Below the pieces are notes generated by a model. The model had not been told where the DNA came from. It made no database searches and worked only from the letters and a program-made list of their open reading frames with translations. 64,000 bases of DNA, from assembly GCF_000934725.1 (NCBI RefSeq), contig NZ_JYNS01000001.1, forward strand, positions 186,001-250,000. Direction: 5' to 3'. This document shows positions 6,859 to 11,332 of this stretch, in pieces. This DNA comes from Methyloterricola oryzae. Lineage in GTDB: Bacteria; Pseudomonadota; Gammaproteobacteria; Methylococcales; Methylococcaceae. The translations under genes were made by a program, and so were the position numbers. Positions within the stretch are counted from its first letter, which is position 1. Every line of letters starts with the position of its first letter.

Positions 6859-7140
6859 ATGAACGCCGACTTCATTTCCGTCCACAATTACCGCGAGCGC
6901 GCCGTGTTCGACGCGGTGACCAAGGCTGCCGACCTTTTCCCGGATATGGCGGAAGACCCCGGCATCCTTGCGGACGTGGCCTGCGTCGCGCTCAACCGAC
7001 TGCAGCCGCGCTACATCCGCCATCCGGTGGATTACGCCTTCTACCTCACCGATGAAGAGCGCGTGAACGACGAGCGAGCAATCACGGCCGCGGTGGAAGC
7101 GGCCTTCCTCTTCGTGCGTTCGCGGCTAGCCGAAAAATAA
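6859..7140 (+). CDS. ComFB-family (late competence) small protein
   Basis: A 93-aa protein. The segment ILADVACVALNRLQPRYIRHPVDYAFYLTDEE (residues 36-67) matches the core of the ComFB family (Pfam ComFB), including the ALN.L.PRY signature. Family members are small proteins first seen in Bacillus competence operons and later beside c-di-GMP and chemotaxis genes; their molecular role is not firmly established. The start is well set by AGGAGG 6 nt upstream. It probably shares a transcript with fabI, and a stem-loop follows immediately. There is no other competence gene in the window, so a competence role is not implied. Confidence 0.75.
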   Translation: MNADFISVHNYRERAVFDAVTKAADLFPDMAEDPGILADVACVALNRLQPRYIRHPVDYAFYLTDEERVNDERAITAAVEAAFLFVRSRLAEK

Positions 7141-7180: not shown

Positions 7181-7241
7181 AGCCAGCCCCCCCGCTCACC
7201 TCACTCCCTGCCCGGTCGCGCTCCTGGCGCGCGCATTCTTT

Positions 7242-7273
7242 CCAACATACTACCTTCCCAACATACTACCTTC
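7242..7273. repeat. Tandem 16-bp direct repeat (two copies)
   Basis: CCAACATACTACCTTC occurs twice head to tail (7242-7257 and 7258-7273) without mismatch, immediately before the Pho-box-like array of the plcP promoter. It is A/T-richer than its surroundings. It could be a recent duplication or a protein-binding site. Confidence 0.7.
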
Positions 7274-7276
7274 CAG

Positions 7277-7332
7277 CCGTAACGCAATCGTAATCAAGGC
7301 GTTATGCTACCGTAACACGGCCTTTCTATCTT
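7277..7332 (+). promoter_or_regulatory. Probable PhoB-dependent promoter of the lipid-remodelling cluster
   Basis: Four 7-mers with 4-bp spacers and exactly 11-bp period: CCGTAAC (7277), TCGTAAT (7288), GCGTTAT (7299), CCGTAAC (7310). The shared pattern xCGTwAy fits the Pho-box half-site CTGTCAT at its G, T, A and final pyrimidine, and TGTAA-type half-sites are known in enterobacterial Pho promoters. A -10-like TATCTT lies at 7327-7332, 10 bp after the array, which is the spacing of classical PhoB promoters where the Pho box replaces the -35. No PhoB gene is in the window; the regulator is inferred. Confidence 0.65.
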
Positions 7333-7365
7333 GTGCGCAAGCCCAACACCCGGAAAGGTCAAATC

Positions 7366-8175
7366 ATGCGACTGCGCTACCGCACCGTCTGGATCTCCGA
7401 TGTACACCTCGGCACGCGTGGTTGCCGGGACGAGTATCTGCTGGATTTTCTTCGCCACGTGGACTGCGAGCAGCTCTACCTGGTCGGCGACATCATCGAC
7501 CTGTGGAAGCTGAAAGGCGGATTCTATTGGCCGGGACTGCACAACGAAATCCTGCGCCACATCTTCGCCATGGCCAAGAACGGGACCCGGGTGCAGTACA
7601 TTCCGGGGAACCACGACGAACTCCTGCGCGGGCACATCGGCACGGTCTTCAATGGCGTCGAGATCGTGGAACGCGCCGTCCACCGGACCGCCGACGGCCG
7701 CCGCTTCCTGGTGCTGCACGGCGATGAGTTCGACGGCGTCGTCTGCTCCAGCCGCTGGCTGGCGATGCTTGGCAGCGAAGCCTACGACCTCCTGATCGAG
7801 TTGAACCGCTGGTTCAACCATGCCCGCCGCATCCTGGGTTTCCCCTACTGGTCCATGTCGGCCTACATCAAGCACAAGGTCAAGAACGCCGTCAACTTCA
7901 TCTTCTCCTTCGAGGAGGCCCTGTTGCACGCGGCACGCGAGGAGCAGTTGGACGGAGTCATCTGTGGCCATATTCACCACGCCGCCTTGCGCCAGACCGC
8001 AGGCGGTATCGAATACGCCAACTGCGGCGACTGGGTGGAAAGCTGCACCGCCCTCGCCGAGTCGCCTACTGGCGAACTCTCTGTCATCCGCTGGGTGGAA
8101 GAAAGCATTCAACGACTTGAGGAATCGACCCTTGAAAATTGCCCTGATCACGGACGCCTGGCGCCCACAAGTTAA
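7366..8175 (+). CDS. plcP: PlcP-type metallophosphoesterase (phospholipase C for lipid remodelling)
   Basis: Calcineurin-fold metallophosphoesterase, 269 aa. All metal-ligand blocks are present: SDVHLG (D12, H14), GDIIDLW (D42), GNHDE (81-85), LHGDEFD (H118) and GHIHH (H202, H204). The run YRTVWISDVHLGTRGC and the following YLVGDIIDLWKL...WPxxHN closely resemble PlcP of rhizobia and marine bacteria, which removes the phospho-headgroup from phospholipids under phosphate limitation and leaves diacylglycerol. The family is related to LpxH, an alternative reading. Context favours PlcP: a lipid glycosyltransferase overlaps its 3' end, and a PAP2 phosphatase and DgkA follow. GGAAAGG lies 7 nt before the ATG; an upstream in-frame GTG (7333) is less likely. 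Confidence 0.82.
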   Translation: MRLRYRTVWISDVHLGTRGCRDEYLLDFLRHVDCEQLYLVGDIIDLWKLKGGFYWPGLHNEILRHIFAMAKNGTRVQYIPGNHDELLRGHIGTVFNGVEIVERAVHRTADGRRFLVLHGDEFDGVVCSSRWLAMLGSEAYDLLIELNRWFNHARRILGFPYWSMSAYIKHKVKNAVNFIFSFEEALLHAAREEQLDGVICGHIHHAALRQTAGGIEYANCGDWVESCTALAESPTGELSVIRWVEESIQRLEESTLENCPDHGRLAPTS

Positions 8176-9202
8176 CGGCGTCGTCACCACCCTGCTCAAG
8201 ACCTGCGAAGAACTGAGAAACCTGGGCCACAGCGTCGAGACCTTCACACCGGACCAGTTCCGCAACTGGCCCTGTCCCGGTTACCACGAAATCCGTCTGG
8301 CCCTGGGCTGCGGCCGGGGGCTGCGGGAGCGGTTGGACCGCTTCCAGCCCGACGCCATCCATATCGCGACGGAAGGACCTCTGGGGATGGCGGCGCGCAA
8401 CTACTGCCGCCGACGCGGCCTGCCCTACACCAGTTCCTTTCACACCCGTTTCGCCGAATACATCCACCTGCGCCTGCGTTTCCCGCTGGCCTGGAGCTAC
8501 GCCTTTCTGCGCTGGTTTCATTCTGGGAGCACACGTCTGATGGCGGCGACACCCACCCTGATCGAGGAACTCAAGGGACGCGGCTTCGCCAACCCGGTGC
8601 ATTGGTCGCGGGGCGTGGACACGGATCTGTTCCGGCCACGGGACAAGGGCTATCTGGACCTGCCGCGGCCGGTCTTTGCGTATGCGGGCCGCGTCGCCAT
8701 TGAGAAGAACATCGAGGCCTTCCTGTCCTTGGACCTGCCCGGCAGCAAGCTGGTGATTGGCGATGGTCCGCAGCGCGAGGAACTGGAAGCCAGGCACCCG
8801 GAAGTCCGCTTCGTCGGCTACCGGATGGGTGAGGAACTGGCCATGCACCTGGCTGATGCGGACGTGTTCGTGTTTCCCAGCCTGACCGACACCTTCGGAC
8901 TGGTGATGCTGGAGGCCCTGGCCTGTGGCGTGCCGGTTGCCGCTTTTCCAGTTCAGGGCCCCAAGGACGTCATACTCGACGAGCGGGTGGGCTGTCTCAG
9001 CGAGAATCTGCGGGAAGCGGCGCTCGAGGCCATGACCCTCGACCCGGCCGCGTGCAGAACCTATGCCATGGGCTACTCCTGGACCCGGTGCGCGCGACAG
9101 TTCGAAGGCCATCTGGCGCCGATTTCCCGCCACGAAGCGCGCCCGGCCGCCTGGTGGCAGCGCTCCGCTCGCAAGTCCGCCCCGCCTTCTGTCACGGACT
9201 GA
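8132..9202 (+). CDS. GT4-family glycosyltransferase, probably diacylglycerol glycosyltransferase
   Basis: Retaining GT-B glycosyltransferase, 356 aa. The N-terminal acceptor domain begins KIALITDAWRPQVNGVVTT, a loop typical of the SqdX/MgtA/Agt branch of GT4. The donor domain carries AYAGRVAIEKNIE, GDGPQREELE and the C-terminal nucleotide-sugar motif near residue 253 (DTFGLVMLEALACGVP, with D where E is usual). I use a TTG start because GAGGAA lies about 8 nt upstream and homology begins at once; this makes a 44-bp overlap with plcP, implying coupled translation. The likely role is to glycosylate the diacylglycerol released by PlcP, giving a phosphorus-free glycolipid. The sugar donor cannot be read from sequence. 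Confidence 0.78.
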   Translation: MKIALITDAWRPQVNGVVTTLLKTCEELRNLGHSVETFTPDQFRNWPCPGYHEIRLALGCGRGLRERLDRFQPDAIHIATEGPLGMAARNYCRRRGLPYTSSFHTRFAEYIHLRLRFPLAWSYAFLRWFHSGSTRLMAATPTLIEELKGRGFANPVHWSRGVDTDLFRPRDKGYLDLPRPVFAYAGRVAIEKNIEAFLSLDLPGSKLVIGDGPQREELEARHPEVRFVGYRMGEELAMHLADADVFVFPSLTDTFGLVMLEALACGVPVAAFPVQGPKDVILDERVGCLSENLREAALEAMTLDPAACRTYAMGYSWTRCARQFEGHLAPISRHEARPAAWWQRSARKSAPPSVTD

Positions 9203-9228
9203 TCATCATCCAGTCACGTCTCTGTCAT
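9189..9228 (+). promoter_or_regulatory. Second Pho-box-like array, ahead of the PAP2 phosphatase gene
   Basis: Four heptamers at 11-bp period: CTGTCAC (9189), TGATCAT (9200), CAGTCAC (9211) and CTGTCAT (9222). Units 3 and 4 together are a near-consensus Pho box (CTGTCAT-N4-CTGTCAT), and unit 1 is also near consensus. The array begins inside the last codons of the glycosyltransferase gene. About 10 bp further on, TAAGCT (9239-9244) could serve as a weak -10. It predicts an internal PhoB-activated promoter for the second half of the cluster. Confidence 0.68.
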
Positions 9229-9267
9229 GAATGCTTTCTAAGCTGAACGAACAGTCAAGGGAAGCCT

Positions 9268-9293
9268 GGCCGCCGCCCGTTGGTTTGGCGGCC
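9268..9293 (+). other. Stem-loop in the leader of the PAP2 gene
   Basis: Perfect 7-bp inverted repeat GGCCGCC (9268-9274) and GGCGGCC (9287-9293) with a 12-nt loop, between the Pho-like array and the ATG at 9350. There is no T-run after it. It may stabilise the mRNA or attenuate read-through from the upstream genes. Confidence 0.4.
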
Positions 9294-9349
9294 GAGCAAA
9301 GCCAAAGGCCAGGGACAGGCGCCGAGGTCCATGCCACGAGGTAAGCGCC

Positions 9350-9874
9350 ATGAAGCTCATGCACACCATTACCACATTCGACATCAATCTGTTCAGCTGG
9401 GTCATGCGCCGCAAGACCCAGAAGTTCCAGGTCCACTGCGCGCGCTGGATATCGAAAACCGCCGACGGTCCCCTCTATGTGCTGCTGGGAGCCGCGCTGC
9501 TCTGCTCGAAGACCCCCGCAGACCTGCTCCTGCTGCATAGCCTCGTGCTGGGGTTGCTCATGGAACGCCCGCTGTATGCGATCCTCAAGAACCTGTGCCG
9601 GCGCGACCGCCCCCCAGTGGTGCTGAACATCCAGAGTTTCATCGTTCCCTCGGACCGATTCAGCTTTCCCTCGGGGCATACCTCGGCCGCTTTCCTGGTG
9701 GCTACCTGCCTCAGCTATTTTCACCCGCCGCTCGCTCCCCTTCTGCTCACTTGGGCATCCCTGGTGGGCATGGCGAGGGTGGTGCTGGGCGTGCACTTCC
9801 CCACTGACACCTTCATCGGCGCCCTGATGGGCAGCGGCCTGGCCCTGTTGAGTCTGGAGATTTTGAACGCGTGA
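9350..9874 (+). CDS. PAP2-family membrane phosphatase
   Basis: Integral-membrane lipid phosphatase of the PAP2 superfamily, 174 aa. The three catalytic blocks are present in order: KNLCRRDRP (K-x6-RP), FSFPSGHTSAA (PSGH) and ARVVLGVHFPTD (normally SR-x5-H-x3-D; here A replaces S). Hydrophobic stretches between them form membrane helices. In this context it would dephosphorylate phosphatidic acid to diacylglycerol for the neighbouring glycosyltransferases. Undecaprenyl-pyrophosphate phosphatase is an alternative within the superfamily. The stop codon overlaps the next start by 4 bp. Confidence 0.8.
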   Translation: MKLMHTITTFDINLFSWVMRRKTQKFQVHCARWISKTADGPLYVLLGAALLCSKTPADLLLLHSLVLGLLMERPLYAILKNLCRRDRPPVVLNIQSFIVPSDRFSFPSGHTSAAFLVATCLSYFHPPLAPLLLTWASLVGMARVVLGVHFPTDTFIGALMGSGLALLSLEILNA

Positions 9875-10917
9875 GAATCTTTTTTGGTGTGCAGGCGACC
9901 GGCAACGGTCACATCACCCGCGCCAGAGCCCTGGCGCCCAAGTTGAAACAAGCGGGCATAGAAGTCGACTACCTGTTCTCCGGCCGGCCCTGGGAACAAC
10001 TGTTTGAAATGGAGGTGTTCGACGATTACCAATGGCGCGAAGGACTGACCTTCAGCACCCGCGACGGACATATCCAGCATGTCCGTACCGCCTTCCGCAA
10101 CAACCTGCTGAACTTCGCGCGCGATGTGCGGCAACTGGACCTGGGCGGCTACGACCTGGTGATCAGCGACTTCGAGCCGGTGACGGCCTGGGCCGCGAAG
10201 CTGCAGGGCGTCAAGCACGTCCTCGGCATCGGTCATCAATACGCTTTCGGCTACGACATCCCCAAGGCCGCCGCCGATTTCCTCGGAACGCAGATACTGC
10301 GGTATTTCGCGCCGGTGAAGCTGGGCCTGGGCGTGCATTGGCACCATTTCCATCATCCGATCCTGCCGCCCATCTTCGAGACCGGGGCGGAACGCAAACC
10401 TGTGGATCCGCGCAAGATCATTGTCTACCTGCCCTTCGAGGACGTGGATCACGTCATCGGTCTGCTGCGCCGCTTCCATGACCACCAGTTCACCATCTAC
10501 AGCCCGGCCATGCCCCATGACCGCCACGAACCGGCCGAACACATCCATGTCAGGCAGCTCTCACGCGCCGGTTTCCAGGCGGATTTCGCCGATGCCGCCG
10601 GGGTGATCTGCAACGCCGGCTTCGAATTGGCCAGCGAATCCCTGCATCAGGGCAAGAAGCTCCTGGCCAAACCCTTGCAGGGCCAGATGGAGCAGATGTC
10701 CAATGCCCTTGCCCTGGAACTGCTGCAACTGGGACAGGTGATGCAGTCCCTGGACTCCGCCAGCATCGAAACCTGGCTGGAACACAGCCAGGCCGTCGAG
10801 GTGCGCTATCCCGACGTGGCTCAGGCGGTGGTAGACTGGATTTGCGAGGGCAATTTCCATATCGACCAGGCCTGGGTGGACCGCATCTGGGCGCAAGCCA
10901 TCACCCGCCGGGACTGA
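9871..10917 (+). CDS. MJ1255/VC2487-family glycosyltransferase
   Basis: GT-B-fold enzyme related to MurG and GT28, 348 aa. The N-terminus RIFFGVQATGNGHITRARALAPKL contains the G-x-G-H-x-x-R loop typical of the MJ1255/VC2487 family. The C-terminal donor half has GVICNAGFELASESLHQGKKLLAKP, the counterpart of the nucleotide-sugar pocket of UDP-glycosyltransferases. No experimentally settled function is known to me for this family. Coupling to PAP2 (4-bp overlap) and to dgkA downstream suggests a second lipid glycosylation step, for example addition of another sugar to a monoglycosyl-diacylglycerol. Confidence 0.75.
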   Translation: MRIFFGVQATGNGHITRARALAPKLKQAGIEVDYLFSGRPWEQLFEMEVFDDYQWREGLTFSTRDGHIQHVRTAFRNNLLNFARDVRQLDLGGYDLVISDFEPVTAWAAKLQGVKHVLGIGHQYAFGYDIPKAAADFLGTQILRYFAPVKLGLGVHWHHFHHPILPPIFETGAERKPVDPRKIIVYLPFEDVDHVIGLLRRFHDHQFTIYSPAMPHDRHEPAEHIHVRQLSRAGFQADFADAAGVICNAGFELASESLHQGKKLLAKPLQGQMEQMSNALALELLQLGQVMQSLDSASIETWLEHSQAVEVRYPDVAQAVVDWICEGNFHIDQAWVDRIWAQAITRRD

Positions 10918-10960
10918 CCCGACCGCGATTTCCCCTTTTCAGCACGACGTAGCGATACCC

Positions 10961-11332
10961 ATGGCAGGACAGAACCTGAAAGGCATGGCCCGCATCTATG
11001 CGGCCTTCTTCAACTCCATGAAAGGCTTCAAGGCGGCCTGGCTCAGCGAGGAAGCCTTCCGCCAGGAAGTGTATCTGCTGGCGGCGACGGCACCCCTGGC
11101 CCTCTGGCTGGGCCAGGGCCCCGTGGAAAAGGCCCTGTTGCTGGGTAGCGTCCTGCTGGTGCTGATCGTCGAGTTGCTGAACACCGGCATCGAGATCGTG
11201 GTCGACCGCATCAGTTTCGAGCGCCACGAACTGTCCGGCCGAGCGAAAGACGTGGGTTCGGCGGCGGTGCTGTTGTCCCTCGCGCTGGCCGGATGCGTAT
11301 GGGGATTCATACTGCTGCCCCGTCTGTTCTGA
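10961..11332 (+). CDS. dgkA: Diacylglycerol kinase DgkA
   Basis: Small trimeric integral-membrane kinase, 123 aa, the usual size. Diagnostic elements are EEAFRQE near the first helix and the catalytic segment ELLNTGIEIVVDRIS followed by RAKDVGSAAVLLS. It phosphorylates diacylglycerol to phosphatidic acid, returning DAG to phospholipid synthesis. Next to PlcP and PAP2 it closes a PA/DAG cycle. It lies 43 bp after the VC2487-like gene and is the last gene of the run. The 208 bp after it hold only a short GGGCC/GGCCC hairpin (11379-11392) and a TACAAT (11467-11472) that may be the -10 for the next gene. Confidence 0.9.
   Translation: MAGQNLKGMARIYAAFFNSMKGFKAAWLSEEAFRQEVYLLAATAPLALWLGQGPVEKALLLGSVLLVLIVELLNTGIEIVVDRISFERHELSGRAKDVGSAAVLLSLALAGCVWGFILLPRLF

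Follow-up and report, generated by a model that had tools for sequence, protein, structure and literature searches.

A probable phosphate-starvation lipid-remodelling locus in a methanotroph: plcP-agt followed by a predicted PAP2-glycosyltransferase-dgkA unit

The 64-kb stretch of DNA analysed here (the window) carries five predicted genes, all on the forward strand, in the order plcP, agt (a GT4 glycosyltransferase), PAP2, an MJ1255/VC2487-family glycosyltransferase (the second GT) and dgkA. Genes, order and range (7277-11332) are as given in an earlier note on this DNA, which had placed all five in one run. The five genes are indeed adjacent, but a single five-gene operon was dropped: the locus probably consists of two transcription units, plcP-agt and pap2-GT-dgkA, with a separate Pho box ahead of each. 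The reading frames of plcP and agt overlap by 44 nt and those of PAP2 and the second GT by 4 nt. An Rfam scan of the 64-kb window found no RNA elements, and a sigma-70 scan at both Pho sites returned nothing useful. The host is a Methylococcaceae-like methanotroph, with pmoA in its genome. Methanotrophs of this group build large internal membranes.

The first gene (7366..8175, +) encodes a predicted phospholipase C-type metallophosphoesterase, PlcP, with Metallophos Pfam matches. Over 245 aa it shares 54% identity with the protein encoded beside agt1 in P. aeruginosa, and the metal-binding motifs DxH, GDxxD, GNHD and GHxH are all present (SDVHLG, GDIID, GNHDE and CGHIHH). PlcP and LpxH share a common metallophosphoesterase family, and databases label PlcP as UDP-2,3-diacylglucosamine diphosphatase. 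Accordingly, PlcP might be a spare LpxH in a locus serving lipid A synthesis, and the earlier note had itself raised the case of PlcP acting only as LpxH. As far as sequences can tell, this point is answered: a separate LpxH encoded elsewhere in the genome scores 275.7 bits against the LpxH model, whereas PlcP scores 33 bits, far under the cut-off of 190. PlcP has GNHD where the host's own LpxH has GNRD, it clusters in the tree with PlcP homologues and apart from that LpxH, and its gene is linked to agt and Pho boxes. Since a true LpxH is encoded elsewhere, it is very unlikely that PlcP is only an LpxH; we rejected this on the model scores and the tree, and give the lipid A reading almost no credence. 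PlcP is instead predicted to remove phospholipid headgroups, leaving diacylglycerol (DAG).

The second gene (8132..9202, +), which has a TTG start, encodes an Agt-type GT4 with 52% identity to P. aeruginosa Agt1. Members of the GTcp group are characterized by the motifs GRVAxEKN and FPSxTDTFG and a His104-Asp catalytic dyad (PMC8231724). The GT4 carries GRVAIEKN at 186, FPSLTDTFG at 248 and His at 104, in agreement with these published motifs and dyad, and the order of plcP followed by GT4 is kept in most relatives. By likeness to Agt1, this predicted DAG glycosyltransferase would most likely transfer glucose to DAG. A second agt copy is present elsewhere in the genome, for which no Pho box was found.

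A Pho-box array lies 5′ of plcP (7277..7320, +) and comprises four 11-bp repeats, CCGTAACGCAA TCGTAATCAAG GCGTTATGCTA CCGTAACACGG, which carry, in order, CCGTAAC, TCGTAAT, GCGTTAT and CCGTAAC. By the standard consensus, this array is weak. Another Pho box, CAGTCACGTCT CTGTCAT (9211..9228, +), is located 5′ of PAP2, 9 bp past the agt stop codon. Both were scored with a half-site matrix trained solely on promoters of this genome other than these two (porin, PstS-like, phoBR, phoU and exbB). Among 127,966 window positions, the site before PAP2 (9211-9228) ranked first with 16.1 bits and the first step of the plcP array (7277-7294) ranked fourth with 9.0 bits; the two "Pho-like arrays" noticed earlier thus hold up. 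The PAP2 box is also among the 25 sites listed in the 4.9-Mb genome with at most two mismatches to CTGTCATNNNNCTGTCAT.

These sites recur in relatives. Of 36 relatives, 28 have a Pho site of at least 9 bits ahead of PAP2, whereas among control genes the figure is 10 of 184 (Fisher p=4e-20). Upstream of plcP, 7 of 28 relatives reach at least 9 bits against the same 10 of 184 controls (p=0.0026), arrays are found at p<0.05 in 13 of 28 relatives, and in many relatives 11-bp-step arrays stand 60-95 bp 5′ of the gene. We therefore rejected chance matches, against which both the ranks in the window and the control genes speak. A PhoB-like regulator and a PhoR-domain kinase are encoded at C3:285540-287543 with their own Pho box ahead of them, and the host's own olsB has a Pho-like site of 13.1 bits. 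From these boxes we predict that both units are controlled by PhoB in the cell.

The third gene (9350..9874, +; PF01569 E=3e-22) encodes a PAP2-superfamily membrane lipid phosphatase of the LpxE/YodM-like kind. PAP2 lipid phosphatases are defined by KX6RP, PSGH and SRX5HX3D (PMC6581854). The catalytic residues of KX6RP, PSGH and RX5HX3D are invariant in 23 PAP2 sequences, and in the window protein the S of SR is replaced by A. The nearest solved structures are LpxE, followed by acid phosphatases and YodM/PgpB. The window PAP2 resembles LpxE, YodM and PgpB in its complete tripartite active-site motif; unlike theirs, its gene overlaps that of a GT and has a Pho box ahead of it, and its lipid-phosphatase substrate is putative. 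Among its functionally characterized relatives are lipid A 1-phosphatase and undecaprenyl-diphosphate phosphatase. Judged from the sequence, the substrate may be phosphatidic acid or another lipid phosphate.

The second GT (9871..10917, +; TIGR00661, PF13528) scores 232.3 bits against TIGR00661, above the curated cut-off of 195.9, and a GNGH motif near its N terminus is invariant in a 29-member alignment. Its match to MurG is collinear but weak (E=0.037). A search of solved structures found no relative, the AlphaFold model, built from a two-sequence alignment, has a pLDDT of 38, and a literature search on VC2487, MJ1255, PF13528 and TIGR00661 found no functional paper. This predicted second DAG/lipid glycosyltransferase may transfer a first sugar or a second sugar, or may use another acceptor. 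If it added the second sugar to MGDG or GADG made by Agt, rather than acting on DAG as a first-step enzyme, the locus would yield di-glycosyl-DAG. The standing together of agt and the second GT in this lineage fits such a role, as do the diglycosyl lipids made by some plcP-linked glycosyltransferases (PMC4796936). In two relatives (L122 and L222), however, the second GT is directly 3′ of plcP with no adjoining GT4, and in two others (L123 and L133) PAP2-GT comes after plcP; in these relatives the second GT might fill the role of agt. We regard the addition of a second sugar as rather unlikely.

The survey of conserved gene order suggested by the earlier note gave a divided result: among the relatives compared, the full five-gene order was found in this lineage only, whereas PAP2 and the MJ1255/VC2487-family GT form a conserved pair of their own in Gammaproteobacteria, reaching other orders. 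The second GT nearly always adjoins PAP2, and in 9 of 18 genera no more than 15 kb separates the pair from plcP (binomial p ~4e-14). In about half of the genera, PAP2-GT is away from plcP or not placeable. Its other settings are next to genes for ornithine lipids, phoU or a different kind of DAG kinase. In G046 and G054, plcP and PAP2-GT are separated by olsBA, phoU and a transporter are located 5′ of PAP2-GT in other lineages, and a patatin lipase and a DAGK_cat kinase flank the pair in still others; olsB or olsB-olsA is also found 5′ of plcP in G030, G004 and G005.

This linkage bears on whether the second unit acts on the outer envelope. PAP2 could be an LpxE-like enzyme working on lipid A or undecaprenyl diphosphate at the periplasmic side, with its Pho box serving to save phosphate from lipid A and the GT glycosylating another lipid. 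LpxE is the best solved-structure match of PAP2; its substrates further include PG-phosphate and undecaprenyl diphosphate, and it has its active site on the periplasmic side (PMC6581854), in contrast to DgkA, which consumes ATP within the cell. The company of PAP2-GT, namely plcP, olsBA and DAG kinases of two unrelated kinds, points to glycerolipids instead, and an envelope role, be it for the unit or for the phosphate-saving box, appears to us rather improbable. We tentatively propose, at slightly less than even confidence, that PAP2-GT is a distinct phosphate-starvation-controlled glycolipid module across Gammaproteobacteria, in which PAP2 would provide DAG by dephosphorylating phosphatidic acid or a similar lipid and the GT would be an uncharacterized type of DAG glycosyltransferase, possibly MurG-like, able to substitute for Agt beside plcP. 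A published function for the pair was not found in the literature. If the proposal is true, a GT family that occurs in archaea and Bacteroidota too would gain its first function.

The last gene (10961..11332, +; PF01219 E=4e-33) encodes the diacylglycerol kinase DgkA, which matches E. coli-type DgkA structures across almost the entire protein (E=2e-29) and is predicted to return DAG to phosphatidic acid. It is third after PAP2-GT in seven genera, this one included. No Pho box of its own was found before dgkA in 18 relatives, and thus it is probably co-transcribed with PAP2-GT. As dgkA lacks such a box and is widespread in the group, its placement may owe something to lineage history. It could even be a housekeeping gene whose place after PAP2-GT in one lineage is a coincidence and which takes no part in remodelling: all PAP2-GT-dgkA cases fall within one family, no Pho box precedes dgkA, and the gene is located elsewhere in many relatives. 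Yet other arrangements too bring dgkA or a DAGK_cat kinase close to plcP or PAP2-GT (L009, L011, L130, L132 and L218), with dgkA divergent from plcP in the first two. A purely incidental neighborhood is in our judgment doubtful, and we retain DgkA in the proposed pathway.

Taken as a whole, the locus likely mediates a PhoB-controlled swap of phospholipids for phosphorus-free glycolipids at phosphate shortage. This lipid-remodelling interpretation is supported by the PlcP-Agt homology, the diagnostic motifs, the conserved Pho boxes and the linkage to olsBA, phoU and DAG kinases. In the first unit, PlcP would cut phospholipid headgroups to yield DAG, on which the Agt-type GT4 would put a sugar, most likely glucose. 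In the second unit, PAP2 would free phosphate from a lipid phosphate, most likely phosphatidic acid or PG-phosphate, and the resulting DAG would feed the second GT, giving a second glycolipid or an added second sugar. DgkA would turn surplus DAG back to phosphatidic acid, limiting its build-up and permitting a return to phospholipids. The earlier proposal that the genes strip headgroups, make glycolipids and balance DAG with phosphatidic acid therefore stands at the level of the locus, whereas what PAP2 and the second GT do is less certain; the exact assignments within the second unit fall a little short of even odds in our estimate. Many bacteria make limited phosphate go further by exchanging phospholipids for sugar lipids; in methanotrophs the swap bears on the amount of methane oxidised under phosphate shortage (PMC9239053).

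Among the closest known systems is plcP-agt1 of P. aeruginosa (PA3219-PA3218), whose mutants lose MGDG, Agt1 converting DAG and UDP-glucose to this lipid (PMC8528852). It shares the gene order and the above protein identities (54% and 52%) with the first unit, and its upstream 11-bp-step Pho array, a published Pho box, scores 10.0 bits with the matrix used here. In contrast, PAP2, the MJ1255/VC2487-family GT and dgkA are absent from the 6.7-kb stretch around plcP-agt1, and the second glycosyltransferase of P. aeruginosa, Agt2, is encoded elsewhere (PA0842). The marine plcP arrangements, types 1-6, likewise combine plcP and a Pho box with a glycosyltransferase or betaine-lipid genes, but none of those described in the accessible part of PMC4796936 contains the PAP2-GT(-dgkA) unit.

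The earlier note considered the five-gene version undescribed. For the PAP2-GT-dgkA half, no description was found in the literature, and the words PAP2 and kinase are absent from the main text of PMC9239053; the plcP-agt half, on the other hand, is already known in methanotrophs from that study. According to it, plcP occurs in all proteobacterial methanotrophs and agt adjoins it in type Ib, and a plcP-agt mutant of Methylosinus lost GADG and grew poorly at low phosphate. Methylosinus trichosporium OB3b, Methylococcus and Methylocaldum, methanotrophs likewise, have both genes in this order, with MGDG or GADG synthesis predicted. For type Ia methanotrophs, this 2022 study notes "another putative DAG glycosyltransferase" by plcP, in Crenothrix and Methylobacter, its family not being given there, which could be the same as the second GT. 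With its conservation and its Pho box, the PAP2-GT pair hints at a further, undescribed branch of this response and at a testable function for a GT family for which none was found in the literature.

All five genes lie on the + strand of the window (contig C1, positions 186001-250000), with plcP (7366-8175) overlapping the GT4 gene agt (8132-9202) by 44 nt, and the PAP2 gene (9350-9874) overlapping the gene for an MJ1255/VC2487-family glycosyltransferase, GT-VC (9871-10917), by 4 nt; dgkA (10961-11332) follows after 43 bp. The 147 bp between agt and the PAP2 gene form the only sizeable gap and contain the second of two Pho boxes. Thus, the single run of the earlier note is better read as two predicted units, plcP-agt and pap2-GT-VC-dgkA. 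A small ComFB-domain protein is encoded between fabI and plcP (6859-7140). Because the 4.9-Mb genome (73 contigs) carries pmoA-type genes and the closest named match of the window PlcP is from an uncultured Methylococcaceae bacterium, the organism is, judged from its genes, a Methylococcaceae-like methanotroph. Two pmoA-type matches score equally (C18:70710-71423 and C22:33-746, the latter right where its contig begins); contig C12 has a further copy that differs from them.

The whole genome was scanned for CTGTCATNNNNCTGTCAT, and matches were read with their neighboring genes. Sites were located near phoBR, phoU, an ExbB-type gene and the genes for a phosphate-selective porin and a PstS-like protein, which shows a normal predicted Pho regulon. 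A half-site matrix was built from eight such sites, none from the window. Among 127,966 window positions, this matrix ranked 9211-9228 before the PAP2 gene first (16.1 bits) and 7277-7294 before plcP fourth (9.0 bits), bearing out the two Pho-like arrays noticed earlier. The plcP array matches the consensus weakly yet has four 11-bp steps, and the array before P. aeruginosa plcP-agt1 scored 10.0 with the same matrix. A 16-nt tandem repeat, CTTTCCAACATACTAC, lies a short way upstream of the plcP array (7238-7269), its second copy having one change. Elsewhere in the genome, three consecutive Pho half-sites (C25:33352-33380) precede the gene for a 608-aa protein in which MotA/TolQ/ExbB is fused with DUF2341 and laminin-G domains, unusual for a Pho regulon.

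The box before the PAP2 gene is conserved. A site beating 95% of shuffles was found upstream of PAP2 in 33 of 38 relatives, mostly at 60-90 bp and spread over several families and orders, but upstream of GT-VC in only 2/41 and of dgkA in 0/18. Compared with 184 control regions upstream of other genes at these loci, of which 10 had sites of ≥9 bits, such sites were enriched before PAP2 (28/36, Fisher p=4e-20) and plcP (7/28, p=0.0026), p-values that overstate the case as the relatives are not independent. At least four of the eight best-scoring controls precede phosphate or lipid genes (olsB twice, PstS-like and a phosphate ABC permease), which would make the control rate, if anything, an overestimate. 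At one relative's locus (L128; plcP 8198-9013), a very strong box of 22.8 bits upstream of plcP lies on the opposite strand and points away from plcP, to a DnaJ/CbpA-like ORF (9333-10283); similar reverse-facing boxes (17.4 bits) occur at L125 and L126.

GT-VC is present in 44 of 61 relatives' genomes (one marginal), nearly everywhere with PAP2 directly upstream. Class-wide, it was found in only 10/369 genomes; the majority of the distant ones also carry an adjoining PAP2, as does Aeromonas caviae. In 16/38 genomes and 9/18 genera, no more than 15 kb separates the pair from plcP (binomial p about 4e-14 if genera are taken as independent). The five-gene order recurs in G026, G021 and G030 (about 4 kb inserted) and partially in G014 and G035, while genus g10 has consecutive GT4-PAP2-GT-VC-dgkA with a divergent second-type plcP nearby. 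GT-VC directly follows plcP at two loci (L122 and L222), which hints that it could act in place of agt. In a distant gammaproteobacterium, an S1/P1 nuclease gene (L221:9383-10192) is near the pair, perhaps a further phosphate-scavenging link.

Ornithine-lipid genes accompany some of these loci. The olsB-olsA genes are upstream of plcP in G030 and G004 (olsB alone in G005) and between plcP and PAP2-GT in G046 and G054, and in several relatives olsB has a strong Pho box upstream. PhoU and an ABC transporter are immediately upstream of PAP2-GT in G049; in G381 the pair, beside plcP, is flanked by a patatin lipase and a DAGK_cat lipid kinase; and dgkA is divergent from plcP at L009 and L011. In M. 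oryzae itself, an olsB-like gene (PF13444; C10:34468-34773) has a Pho-like site just upstream (L235:1318; 13.1 bits), and ornithine lipid is probably controlled in the same way. Given these linkages and sites, the genes for glycolipids and for ornithine lipid very likely belong to a single regulon.

These data best fit a pathway in which low phosphate would activate PhoB, PlcP would convert phospholipids to DAG and Agt would add a sugar; PAP2 would release phosphate from a lipid phosphate and supply extra DAG, GT-VC would make a second glycolipid, and DgkA would return surplus DAG to phosphatidic acid. The PhoB, PlcP and Agt steps are read from close homologues, and the PAP2, GT-VC and DgkA steps are suggested by family, position and regulation. 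PAP2 retains the full set of catalytic residues. Since its closest solved relative is LpxE, and LpxE enzymes take lipid A, PG-phosphate and undecaprenyl diphosphate (PMC6581854), lipid A or an undecaprenyl substrate is possible. For GT-VC, a search for a solved relative found none; it matched MurG weakly but collinearly (E=0.037), and its structure model was of very low confidence (pLDDT 38).

On sequence, it is very unlikely that PlcP acts only as LpxH. The LpxH model matched a separate gene on contig C9 strongly (275.7 bits) and plcP at only 33 bits. Over 245 residues, PlcP shares 54% identity with a P. aeruginosa protein whose gene precedes those for a GT4 and a cyclase; by gene order, this protein and the GT4 are taken as the characterized PA3219-PA3218 pair. 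In a tree, it fell among Methylococcales plcP homologues with the organism's own LpxH far outside, a placement that is all we use of that very long branch.

A description of the PAP2-GT-VC-dgkA unit and its Pho box was not found in the open-access literature, a scope outside which many journals fall, and the PAP2-GT pair is the part of the cluster worth testing. PMC9239053 mentions another putative DAG glycosyltransferase, family unnamed, close to plcP in Crenothrix and Methylobacter; this may be GT-VC itself. The one Crenothrix plcP locus read (L008) had no GT-VC within 10 kb. The plcP-agt half is already known. According to PMC9239053, all proteobacterial methanotrophs have plcP, and agt adjoins it in Methylococcus and Methylocaldum. 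A plcP-agt mutant of Methylosinus, also a methanotroph, lost GADG and showed poor growth when phosphate was low (PMC9239053). In P. aeruginosa, MGDG is formed by Agt1 from DAG and UDP-glucose and disappears in plcP mutants (PMC8528852). The window GT4 is 52% identical to Agt1 and contains GRVAIEKN, FPSLTDTFG and His104, which correspond to the motifs and the catalytic histidine described for GTcp, a DAG glycosyltransferase (PMC8231724); by sequence, it is of the Agt type. A second Agt-type GT4 (C12:70727-71749; L202:2728-3750, - strand), 59% identical to the first and with the Agt motifs, has no Pho box upstream; P. aeruginosa likewise has two Agt enzymes.
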